NCBI GenBank assembly: GCA_025352065.1
Contig: JANXUC010000056.1
Location: 1 to 64,000 of the forward strand
Length of the DNA: 64,000 nt
Reading direction: 5' to 3'
DNA from: Acidobacteriaceae bacterium
GTDB lineage: Bacteria > Acidobacteriota > Terriglobia > Terriglobales > Acidobacteriaceae
Shown here: positions 6,001 through 9,078 of the stretch, piece after piece
How the letters are laid out: every line of letters starts with the position of its first letter
Numbering within the stretch: the stretch's first letter is position 1
The notes under the pieces: generated by a model
The model's database searches: none
What the model was told of the DNA's origin: nothing
The model's input: the letters and a program-made list of their open reading frames with translations, nothing else
Made by a program: the position numbers and the translations under genes

Positions 6001-6207
6001 ATGCCAAGACAGCGCGAAGCAATGAACACCGTGGCTGCGAAAGAAGAAGAAGAGACCTTTCGGCAGTTTAAGGAATTGGTAGCAAACACAAAGTTGAATG
6101 CCATGATGGCGTCGACGCGATGTGTGAATCTTAGCGAAGCACGAACAGAATGGATCACTTCGTCGAGAGACGGATTTGTAGAAGCGTTTCAGTGGGGGCA
6201 CGCATGA
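6001..6207 (+). CDS. Small hypothetical protein, first gene of the GroEL-fragment operon
   Basis: This is a 68-residue, mostly helical and charged protein (VAAKEEEETFRQFKEL) that I do not recognise. Evidence that it is real: an ATG at 6001 with GGAG 8 bases upstream, and a stop codon that overlaps the start of the next gene in an ATGA arrangement (6204-6207), which implies translational coupling. It has no signal peptide or membrane helix. Confidence 0.55.
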   Translation: MPRQREAMNTVAAKEEEETFRQFKELVANTKLNAMMASTRCVNLSEARTEWITSSRDGFVEAFQWGHA

Positions 6208-6818
6208 GCGCCCAACTTGCCATGGTCGAAAGTGGCGTGTTGCGGCAGGTAGGGGAAATGCTTGTCTTTCGCGCAAAGTTAGATGGCGCACAATTTGACT
6301 GTGGATATCTCTCTCCCTACTTCGTGACGCACCCTGAGCGCATGGAGGCTGTGTTGGAGGACGCCTACATACTCATTTACGAAGCGAGCATTAGCCTTAA
6401 GGAGGACATACTCCCCCTCCTCGACCAGATCACGAAACTCGGTAGACCTTTGCTTATAGTTGCCGGGGATGTTCTCGGCGCTGCGCTCGCAGCACTTGTC
6501 GTGAATAATCTACGCGGCGAATTGCGAGTTGCCGCCGTCCGAGCGTCGGGCTCCCGAGCGCAGCAGAAAAAAGTGTTCGAGGACATTGCTGTGCTTACCG
6601 GCGCTAGGATTGTTGTGGAAGGTTCCAGTGTTGAACTGAAAGACATATGTGTTGCCAATTTGGGCCAGGCGAAGCAAGTTACAGTCGGCAAGAACAGCAC
6701 GGCGATTAAAGTGAAGGTGAAGGGCGACCAGCTTTGTTTTCAACCGCAACCGTACAGTCAGCCCAAGGCCGATCGCCTACTTTTACCAAGTCCTGCTCTT
6801 AAGGAGTGCGCGCTGTGA
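6204..6818 (+). CDS. Stand-alone GroEL apical-domain protein
   Basis: The 204-residue product aligns with only the apical, substrate-binding part of GroEL, about residues 188-336 of the E. coli protein. It contains FDCGYLSPYFVTHPERM, LPLLDQITKLGRPLLIVAGD, LAALVVNNLRGELRVAAVRA, EDIAVLTGAR and NLGQAKQVTVGKNSTAI. The ATP-binding equatorial domain and the C-terminal half are absent. Residues that form the polypeptide-binding groove in GroEL (Tyr/Ser/Tyr/Phe of YLSPYF, Leu pairs, VV of LVVNN) are kept. The usual PGFGDRRKA loop is altered to ASGSRAQQKK. The last 45 residues look unrelated to GroEL. Start and stop both overlap neighbouring genes, and the frame is intact, which argues for a retained gene. 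An ATP-independent holding role is inference. Confidence 0.8.
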   Translation: MSAQLAMVESGVLRQVGEMLVFRAKLDGAQFDCGYLSPYFVTHPERMEAVLEDAYILIYEASISLKEDILPLLDQITKLGRPLLIVAGDVLGAALAALVVNNLRGELRVAAVRASGSRAQQKKVFEDIAVLTGARIVVEGSSVELKDICVANLGQAKQVTVGKNSTAIKVKVKGDQLCFQPQPYSQPKADRLLLPSPALKECAL

Positions 6819-7039
6819 AGATGTTGCTATGGGCAGGATTGCTGATGGTTGTGCTTGGGATTGCATCTCTGGTGGTGCCCATTCCGCAGACCGAGAGGCA
6901 TGGCATCCAAGCCGGAGATCTCCATATTGGAGTTCAGACGAGCCACAGCGAGCGTGTGCCGCCCGTCGTCAGCGCTGTGCTGATTGTTGGCGGGATCGCA
7001 TTGAGCATTGCTGGCGGACGTACGTTGTCGAAGGCCTAG
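6815..7039 (+). CDS. Small inner-membrane protein, third gene of the GroEL-fragment operon
   Basis: This 74-residue protein has a hydrophobic helix at the N-terminus (LLWAGLLMVVLGIASLVVPI). A polar middle follows, with GIQAGDLHIGVQTSH, then a second helix (VVSAVLIVGGIALSIAGG). It resembles a widespread small bacterial membrane family of unknown role. The GTG at 6815 overlaps the upstream TGA (GTGA) and has AAGGAG at 6801-6806, 8 bases upstream, so I prefer it to the GTG at 6806 and the ATG at 6821. Confidence 0.75.
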   Translation: MKMLLWAGLLMVVLGIASLVVPIPQTERHGIQAGDLHIGVQTSHSERVPPVVSAVLIVGGIALSIAGGRTLSKA

Positions 7040-7225: not shown

Positions 7226-7957
7226 ATGAAACTATTCAAGAGTTTTGCAGCCGCACTATCCCTAGCCGTACTCTGTATGCTTGCAGTCCCCAGAGCCTCA
7301 GCCGATGACTGGAACCGTGAGACTATTGTTACCTTCAGCGCACCCGTGGAAGTTCCGGGAGTGGGCGCGCAGACTTTGCCAGCTGGCACGTACATCTTCA
7401 AGATTTTAGACAACAATGCTAACCGTCATATAGTCCAGATTCTTAATCAAGACAAGACCCACGTATTCACGACGATCCTAGCTATCCCGAATGTTCGTCT
7501 GAAAACTACTGACAAAACGACCATTACTTTTAGCGAACGCCCCGCAGGACAACCAGAAGCTCTGAAAGCATGGTTCTATCCGGGACGCGACTGGGGAGAA
7601 GAATTTGTCTACACGAAGTCGAGAGCCATGGAGCTAGCCAAGGAAACCAACGAGCCTGTTCTAGCGACTTCAGTAGAGATGGCGGCAGCTCCGGTGGACA
7701 CCTTGAAGACGTTGCCGATTGAGGCCGTTGGAGCCAAAGGTGAGCCCGTCGAATTGACAAAAGTGGTTGAAGCTCCGCCCGCTGCCGTAGAGCCAGCACC
7801 TGTGGTAGCGGCGGCAGCGCCCGCAGTTGAGCCGCAAATGGTAGCGACCAACACTCTACCGAAGACGGCCAGCTCCATGCCGTTGATTGCATTGTTTGGA
7901 TTTCTATCGCTGAGCGTAGGTTTTGGTCTCAAGCTGGCCTCCAAGCGAGATGCCTGA
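7226..7957 (+). CDS. Secreted protein with LPKTA C-terminal sorting signal (sortase substrate)
   Basis: From the ATG at 7226, which has AGGAGG upstream, the 243-residue product has a signal peptide ending in RASA (about residue 26). A conserved domain follows (FSAPVEVPGVGAQTLPAGTY, then IVQILNQDK and ITFSERP), and then a Pro/Ala-rich linker of about 50 residues. The C-terminus is a textbook sorting signal: LPKTA at 211-215, a hydrophobic helix, and the basic tail KLASKRDA. The globular part resembles a common acidobacterial secreted family of unknown function. A class D sortase gene lies 1.1 kb downstream on the same strand, so covalent anchoring by that enzyme is a reasonable inference. Confidence 0.85.
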   Translation: MKLFKSFAAALSLAVLCMLAVPRASADDWNRETIVTFSAPVEVPGVGAQTLPAGTYIFKILDNNANRHIVQILNQDKTHVFTTILAIPNVRLKTTDKTTITFSERPAGQPEALKAWFYPGRDWGEEFVYTKSRAMELAKETNEPVLATSVEMAAAPVDTLKTLPIEAVGAKGEPVELTKVVEAPPAAVEPAPVVAAAAPAVEPQMVATNTLPKTASSMPLIALFGFLSLSVGFGLKLASKRDA

Positions 7958-8055
7958 ATTGGATGAGGCTGCAACGGGGTGGCGGGCGACCGCCGCCTCT
8001 GTTTCAGTTTTTTCAGCATCCACTAAGGTGCCGATTCGACGAAAGTGTCCCGCGG

Positions 8056-9078
8056 ATGACCGCACGACCTCCAGCACGCATGTGCAACAAATGTGGGTGG
8101 GATAGGACGCTGCGATCTCTGGGTGCCTCTCTTGTGCTGATCTTGTTGAGCAGTTTCGCCCAACCTCAAGCGGCTTTATCGTTGCAAAATCAAAAAGCGA
8201 ACGACTACACCATTCACGTAAGTGTGGATGAGGTTGTTCTGCGCGCGACTGCGCAAACCAACAAAGGAGTCCTTGTCTCGGGACTGGGCAAAGATGACTT
8301 CCAGGTTTACGAAGACGGAGTGCTGCAGCAAGTTCGGCATTTTAGTCACGAAGATATTCCAGTTACGGTCGGCCTAGTCATGGACAATAGCGGCAGCATG
8401 CAGCCGAAGCGCGACACCGTGATTGCGGCCGCCATGGCTTTTGCGCGCTCCAGCAACCCGCAGGACCAGATGTTCGTGGTCAATTTCAACGAGAAGGTGG
8501 CGCTTGGCCTTCCGGTCAATAGGGCCTTTACGGATAACGTCGGTGAGTTGGAAACAGCCTTGTCACGGACTCCTGCGACGGGGGAAACGGCGCTGTACGA
8601 TGCGGTTGCTGTAGCTTTGGAGCACCTGCAGAGGGGTAATCGCGACAAGAAGGTACTGATCGTGATCAGCGACGGAGGCGACAACGCCTCCAAGCACAAC
8701 TTGGCGCAGATCAGGGCTATGGCGGCGCACTCCGATGTGATCCTCTACACCATTGGGATTTTTGATGAGGAAGATGCTGACCGGAACCCGCATGTATTGA
8801 AGCAACTGGCCAAGGACACGGGCGGTGAGGCTTTTCTGCCAAAGTCCTTGAAGAGTGTCCCGGCTATCTGTGAGCAAATCGCGCGCGATATCCGAAACCA
8901 ATACGCAATCGGGTATGTACCCAGCAATAAGAAACCCGACGGAACTTACCGAATGATAGAGCTCAAGGCCCAGGCGGCGGGCTACAAGCATTTGATAGTG
9001 CGCACTCGCTCTGGATACTACGCCCTGCCGAAGACTTTACCTGTGGCGAAAAATAAAGCCGATGCCGTCCATAAGTAA
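8056..9078 (+). CDS. VWFA-domain secreted protein (VWFA-related acidobacterial family)
   Basis: From the ATG at 8056 the protein has 340 residues, with a hydrophobic export segment (SLGASLVLILLSSFAQ) near 21-36. An acidobacterial-type lead domain (VSVDEVVLRATAQTNKG, then DDFQVYEDGVLQQ) is followed by a von Willebrand A domain. The metal-binding DxSxS motif is complete (VMDNSGSM, Asp110, Ser112, Ser114), as are TGETALYDAV and VISDGGDN. The start is uncertain between 8056 and 8080. The final residues include LPKTLPVA but no hydrophobic helix follows, so this is not a normal sorting signal. The gene overlaps the sortase start by 17 bases, implying one transcript. VWA proteins usually mediate adhesion or protein assembly. 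Confidence 0.85.
   Translation: MTARPPARMCNKCGWDRTLRSLGASLVLILLSSFAQPQAALSLQNQKANDYTIHVSVDEVVLRATAQTNKGVLVSGLGKDDFQVYEDGVLQQVRHFSHEDIPVTVGLVMDNSGSMQPKRDTVIAAAMAFARSSNPQDQMFVVNFNEKVALGLPVNRAFTDNVGELETALSRTPATGETALYDAVAVALEHLQRGNRDKKVLIVISDGGDNASKHNLAQIRAMAAHSDVILYTIGIFDEEDADRNPHVLKQLAKDTGGEAFLPKSLKSVPAICEQIARDIRNQYAIGYVPSNKKPDGTYRMIELKAQAAGYKHLIVRTRSGYYALPKTLPVAKNKADAVHK

Follow-up and report, generated by a model that had tools for sequence, protein, structure and literature searches.

The window, by which the whole 64,000-nt stretch of DNA analysed here is meant, comes from an Acidobacteriaceae bacterium (GenBank assembly GCA_025352065.1, contig JANXUC010000056.1) and contains a stand-alone gene for a GroEL apical domain, which lies between a small upstream frame and a gene for a small membrane protein (Table 1). 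The upstream frame ends in ATGA over the apical start codon, giving a four-base overlap, and the GTG at 6815 opens the membrane-protein frame and likewise overlaps the apical stop by four bases; the overlapping starts and stops noticed in the sequence-only reading are thus real. A promoter and terminator scan returned no site on the forward strand.

Table 1. Features of the apical-domain locus, numbered by position in the window.
Feature	Position	Strand	Basis
Upstream frame, 68 aa, possible coupled leader peptide	6001..6207	+	related to the leader peptide of 6 other copies
GGGGG, possible ribosome-binding site	6194..6198	+	sequence
Stand-alone GroEL apical-domain gene, 204 aa	6204..6818	+	NCBIfam and PDB matches, tree clade, Foldseek
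Codons 1-25, N-terminal segment (GroES 1-40 recognisable in relatives)	6204..6278	+	alignment with N-termini of relatives
Codons 26-175, apical domain with client groove	6279..6728	+	NCBIfam, PDB fragments, groove residues
C-terminal tail with stop, modelled at low confidence	6729..6818	+	pLDDT <50 from residue 181
Small membrane protein, 74 aa, weakly DUF3185-like (below cut-off)	6815..7039	+	hydrophobic stretches

Residues 26-171 of the window protein correspond to GroEL 188-332, and the rest of GroEL is unmatched in the NCBIfam models PRK00013 (E 5.8e-50) and TIGR02348 (E 3.8e-49), whose full-length cut-offs are not reached (170.2 bits against 397 and 167.6 against 582.1, respectively). Apical-domain fragments in the PDB also match the protein, so that the description of the 204-residue frame as apical-only is borne out. 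The score with Pfam Cpn60_TCP1 lies slightly under the cut-off (33.1 versus 34.3 bits), and the protein lacks the full set of equatorial, intermediate and apical domains that a GroEL subunit unites. AlphaFold2 models, computed from a shallow alignment of four rows, had a mean pLDDT of 60.6 for the window protein and 57.0 for a relative. The core is of moderate confidence, with blocks at pLDDT 62-85 lying between residue 51 and residue 170, and both termini are modelled with low confidence, the N-terminal one up to residue 46; the relative was similar. These models were used for the fold match alone and for nothing finer, and the best Foldseek match was 1srv, the Thermus thermophilus GroEL fragment 192-336 (E 1.8e-16, TM 0.86 by target length).

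When the chaperonin proteins of the genome itself, GroEL and GroES, were run against the whole window by tblastn (E up to 1), no other groEL or groES piece was found; the window gene showed 53.5% identity to the own GroEL over 155 residues, and one further GroEL match (E 0.47) was due to chance. A search of the own genome found one full-length groEL, located on contig C54 with groES adjoining. Since this gene lies on another contig and shares only the above identity with the window gene, the latter is not a fresh truncated duplicate, a possibility that had been raised along with the sequence-only reading.

Copies of the gene were gathered by a profile search that covered 398 genomes and two genera represented by 45 and 24 genomes; an initial search, of 150 genomes from the taxonomic family of the window genome, had shown a few short apical-only frames amid many normal groELs. 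There are 28 complete apical-only copies in 21 genomes, all of one taxonomic family: genus g6 has 12 copies (in 8 of its 45 genomes), genus g28 has 14 (in 11 of its 24), and G044 (genus g45) and the window genome (genus g1) have one each; the maximum is three per genome (G365). The complete frames G286:C75 and G269:C25 (202 and 201 aa) are counted among the 28, and left out are G397:C163 (split between two frames), G204:C138 (which reads through, with one residue undetermined and a stretch lacking), L067 (without its N-terminal third), L064 (differently built), L069 (partial) and pieces at contig ends (e.g. G081 and G337). The searches showed no further genome of genus g1. Among the matches listed in a search of the class (299 genomes, of which at least 74 belong to the same family), no short apical-only frame was found outside the family, where diverged copies could have escaped this search. 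With its patchy presence, even inside both genera, the gene looks accessory.

A pattern search of named genomes gave four stretches, two of which are family members in the metagenome-assembled genomes Acidobacteriaceae bacterium palsa_199 and fen_85; their gene sequences equal the G369 and G327 copies, and the names suggest peatland. Among viral contigs (IMG/VR), the leader pattern had no match and the pattern FDCGYLSPYF had two, one in a full-length phage GroEL (L181) and the other in a GroEL truncated where the contig ends (L182). In L181, the GroEL gene is, as judged by eye, accompanied by GroES and by genes resembling those of a small heat-shock protein and a DNA polymerase. At L109 (G255:C109), an apical-only gene and a full-length groEL of opposite direction are separated by about 4 kb, and the genome has a second groEL on another contig.

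The apical-only genes form a single family apart from groEL. In the careful tree, the 28 copies grouped together as one clade, set apart from 37 apical sequences of groEL (support 100/99), and in the tree with L064 included 26 copies did so with support 97/99, the bootstrap having not fully settled in either tree. The window row is the longest branch (0.83), and its place inside the clade is unsure. L064 (5012-5677, G009:C83) consists of about 60 residues of the GroEL N-terminus joined to an apical domain, with a YtxH-like gene adjoining; it fell among the groELs in a quick tree and outside them in the careful one (support 32/0), and possibly represents a second, independent origin.

The apical part of the family is under purifying selection, and its flanks are much less constrained. 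Codon models on the 28 copies, fitted on a fast tree search and to complete frames only, gave an omega of 0.203 in the apical part, as opposed to 0.641 in the N-terminal segment and 0.695 in the tail, the fast-evolving flanks of the same genes serving as internal control; the values for 26 copies were nearly equal. Pairwise apical dN/dS had a median of 0.22 and a range of 0.11-0.47 (314 usable of 325 pairs among the first 26 copies). For the window copy, whose dS to other copies is near saturation, comparison with the family consensus gave dS 1.66, dN 0.285 and dN/dS 0.17, so the dN/dS check proposed beforehand yields values far from 1 and from the neutral evolution expected of a pseudogene. 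When neutral evolution was simulated to 1.5 changes per site and without indels, 0.2% of the runs stayed free of stop codons. A naturally encoded apical domain, which the sequence-only reading had considered unusual, is thus substantiated by 28 complete copies in one clade under purifying selection.

The client groove is selectively kept across the family. The groove positions Y199, Y203, F204, L234, L237, L259, V263 and V264 are taken here to be the classical contacts for clients and GroES, and all eight residues are retained in the window copy, as had been noticed from the sequence, in a protein that is the most diverged copy and has changed at 38 of 93 groEL-invariant sites. Over the 28 copies, groove residues are kept at 97.8% versus 72.4% at other sites, with a permutation P of 0.0007 among 110 groEL-invariant or near-invariant sites and of 0.015 among 43 hydrophobic sites; for the window copy alone, P is 0.018, and 0.13 (not significant) among hydrophobic sites. 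Arginine 197 is replaced in most copies (C in 19, S in 6, T in 1, R in 2); its partner in GroEL is presumably a residue of the intermediate domain, which the family is without, and its loss would accord with release of the protein from the ring. Part of one study places the contact surfaces at 199-203, 230-244 and 256-271 and describes groove residues common to client and GroES binding (PMC1885994).

The family ancestor was an in-frame groES-groEL fusion, as follows from GroES-profile matches at the N-termini. The profile was built from 47 GroES proteins (before removal of duplicates) and applied to the N-terminal 48 residues encoded by 28 genes, namely 26 copies plus L064 and L067, the two last-found copies being absent from this set. 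Of these N-termini, 18 beat the best of 560 shuffles and 13 reached E <0.01, and the alignments that were read run from residue 1 to about residue 40; Pfam has no match to the GroES part of the family. Typical members start MTAKLATVDDRILA..VEEA..IRDGSII.RSASDKPQVGG and pass directly into MQFDCGYLSPYF, and the ancestral architecture is GroES to about residue 37 followed by GroEL 188 to about 337. The N-terminus of the window protein scores -1.2 bits with the GroES profile when taken alone and aligns with the N-termini of its relatives, with a 12-residue gap that shortens the mobile-loop part. A tethered GroES mobile loop that fills the groove in cis was considered as well and rejected, since the loop is weakly constrained and shortened in the window copy, and the N-terminus is modelled without confidence.

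A GGAGG sequence lies within 25 nt before the start in 17 of the 26 family copies checked, and about 280 nt upstream are, together with the gene, common to many pairs of loci. In this conserved leader (e.g. in L110), a short hairpin-like stretch, GCCGTGAGGCACGGC, stands directly before GGAGG and is a possible regulatory element. The upstream frame of the window was found in one of 200 genomes, its own, by a genome search at E 0.001, and a leader peptide precedes six other copies among the 28 loci inspected. When ten relatives were compared, the leader frame started with ATG in L103, L105, L110 and L114 (pN/pS 0.27-0.65) and with GTG in L106 and L115, and it was not seen in L104, L108, L119 and L125. 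The score of the window frame against the leader peptides of L103, L105, L110 and L114 was reached by none of 2000 shuffles in each case. At most, the frame is a leader peptide that some family members carry.

Homologues of the downstream membrane protein occur in 44 of 100 genomes, the own one included. By tblastn over 36 loci (apical and others), the membrane gene was found in the window, in G044 (about 17 kb away) and, as decayed remnants, at L111 and L113; these remnants lie 3' of the apical gene, frameshifted and in convergent orientation. The candidate role of the membrane gene as a conserved partner of the apical gene was rejected, as this gene is common and shows no tie to apical genes. 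Among the flanking genes sought in orthologs, which were found in 20 other genomes, the leader therefore recurs in part and the membrane gene does not, and of the three-gene operon suggested by the sequence-only reading the arrangement of frames in the window and the counterparts of the upstream frame stand, but not the conserved membrane partner.

Other neighbours recur at some of the loci. A small Cys/His-containing gene overlaps the apical 3' end in L063, L065, L112 and L119; its protein has the conserved positions ..C....C.E.ADYLE..C..H.SS.KH.SVL and, in L065 and L112, the two tested, no Pfam match. In a clustering of neighbours over 30 loci, a cluster with Crp-like regulators (two confirmed by Pfam) touched 13 loci, small membrane-type genes and a VWA gene also recurred, and no constant neighbour of the apical genes was found; without a constant partner, a membrane tether is not supported. 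In the window, 7226-7957 encodes a protein with a weak C-terminal match to LPxTATN/LPXTG-type sorting signals, below cut-off, and 7963-9078 encodes a VWA-domain protein. Genes similar to the latter lie near apical genes at five other loci, a recurrence that may perhaps reflect a common family.

The observations as a whole are probably best explained by a family of fused apical domains that hold clients independently of ATP, with neither ring nor cage. In an ancestral acidobacterium, a groES-groEL operon that had been duplicated would have lost the stretch from groES codon about 38 to groEL codon about 188 and everything past groEL codon about 337, leaving one gene for a GroES N-terminus and an apical domain, which would then have been retained, copied and diversified into the family. 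Lacking the equatorial domain, the product should be incapable of ring formation or of ATP use by the known GroEL route, and by analogy it would most likely be a monomeric, ATP-independent client-binding protein that acts like a minichaperone. We infer its translation, folding, monomeric state, client binding and cellular role from these data. That evolution arrived at the minichaperone independently, the in-frame deletion fusion giving an Acidobacteria lineage a ringless, ATP-free chaperone beside its normal GroEL-GroES, with gain, spread and loss of copies, is in our judgement evenly poised. Against a functional reading, the split G397:C163, the shortened L067 and the patchy presence fit a dispensable gene.

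The family may instead regulate the GroEL-GroES cycle, its groove sequestering GroES or competing at the GroEL ring with no holding of clients. As the groove serves both client and GroES binding according to a section of PMC1885994, and as the fusion puts a mobile-loop segment of GroES, often with its hydrophobic residues left, beside the groove, such a role is conceivable. It appears unlikely, however, in view of the weak constraint on the loop segment (omega 0.64), the loss of GG from GGI in most copies and the shortening of the segment in the window copy. Single apical domains, moreover, are without the sevenfold avidity of the GroEL ring.

Another reading, likewise improbable, takes the domain as a module that binds one particular partner, or a few, and not as a general chaperone. 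A eukaryotic kinase has reused an apical-like domain as Fab1_TCP in PIKfyve (excerpt of PMC2846930), and both the Cys/His gene overlapping the 3' end at four loci and the leader peptide ahead of several copies could supply partners; neither is constant across loci, however, and the groove is almost unchanged rather than remodelled.

Slow decay of functionless fragments of an old groESL duplicate, which would account for the shortened and split copies and for the fast-evolving N-terminus and tail, and which has a parallel in the short groEL pseudogenes of phytoplasmas (part of PMC13245659), is somewhat less probable still and suits the data least among decay, GroES/GroEL modulation and a specific adaptor. 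The 28 complete frames in one clade, the apical omega of 0.20, compared with 0.64 and 0.70 in the parts that flank it, and the selectively kept groove all speak against it. A three-gene operon tethering client holding to the membrane, to which the four-base overlaps and the related leader peptides of relatives would point, can hardly be right, given a membrane gene that is widespread among genomes irrespective of apical genes and whose other traces by the family are convergent, frameshifted remnants.

ATP-independent client holding by a fused apical domain, the preferred reading, joins a known domain with known activity to a natural ringless gene family that, to our knowledge, was not known before; among the matches listed in the open-licence literature, none described a naturally occurring apical-only gene in bacteria. 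Compared with GroEL and GroES, from which both of its parts descend by sequence, the family is without the equatorial and the complete intermediate domain and without the ATP site, and no ring is expected. Extra or atypical groEL paralogues of bacteria are also additional chaperonin genes beside another copy, but in the portion of PMC5904260 concerned they are three-domain subunits and not a lone apical domain. The groEL pseudogenes of phytoplasmas are short groEL pieces too; in the part of PMC13245659 describing them they are called non-functional, whereas the present family shows selection on one domain. The nearest natural precedent found is Fab1_TCP of the PIKfyve/Fab1 kinases, likewise a chaperonin apical-like domain outside a chaperonin (PMC2846930), which differs in being most like CCT3 (group II), eukaryotic and embedded in a kinase.

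Closest in form are the engineered minichaperones (E. coli 191-345 and 191-376; T. thermophilus 190-333 and 192-336), which comprise the same domain and groove within nearly the same boundaries, and whose apical sequence, boundaries and groove residues the window protein shares; the limits 190-333 and 191-345 given for them (PMC9138447, PMC10836027) are close to those of the family. In the part of PMC9138447 concerned, fragments 190-333 and 191-345 fold alone as monomers, and a minichaperone aids the refolding of rhodanese and cyclophilin A without ATP. Those fragments were cut by experimenters, whereas the family consists of natural genes with a GroES-derived N-terminus and a leader and tail of their own. 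Engineered minichaperones have reportedly also been used in complementation of a temperature-sensitive groEL strain. The usefulness of a ringless apical domain has so far been argued from engineered fragments; a natural version kept by selection would allow the value of client binding by itself to be tested directly, and would exemplify a large machine that dropped its motor and founded a new protein family.
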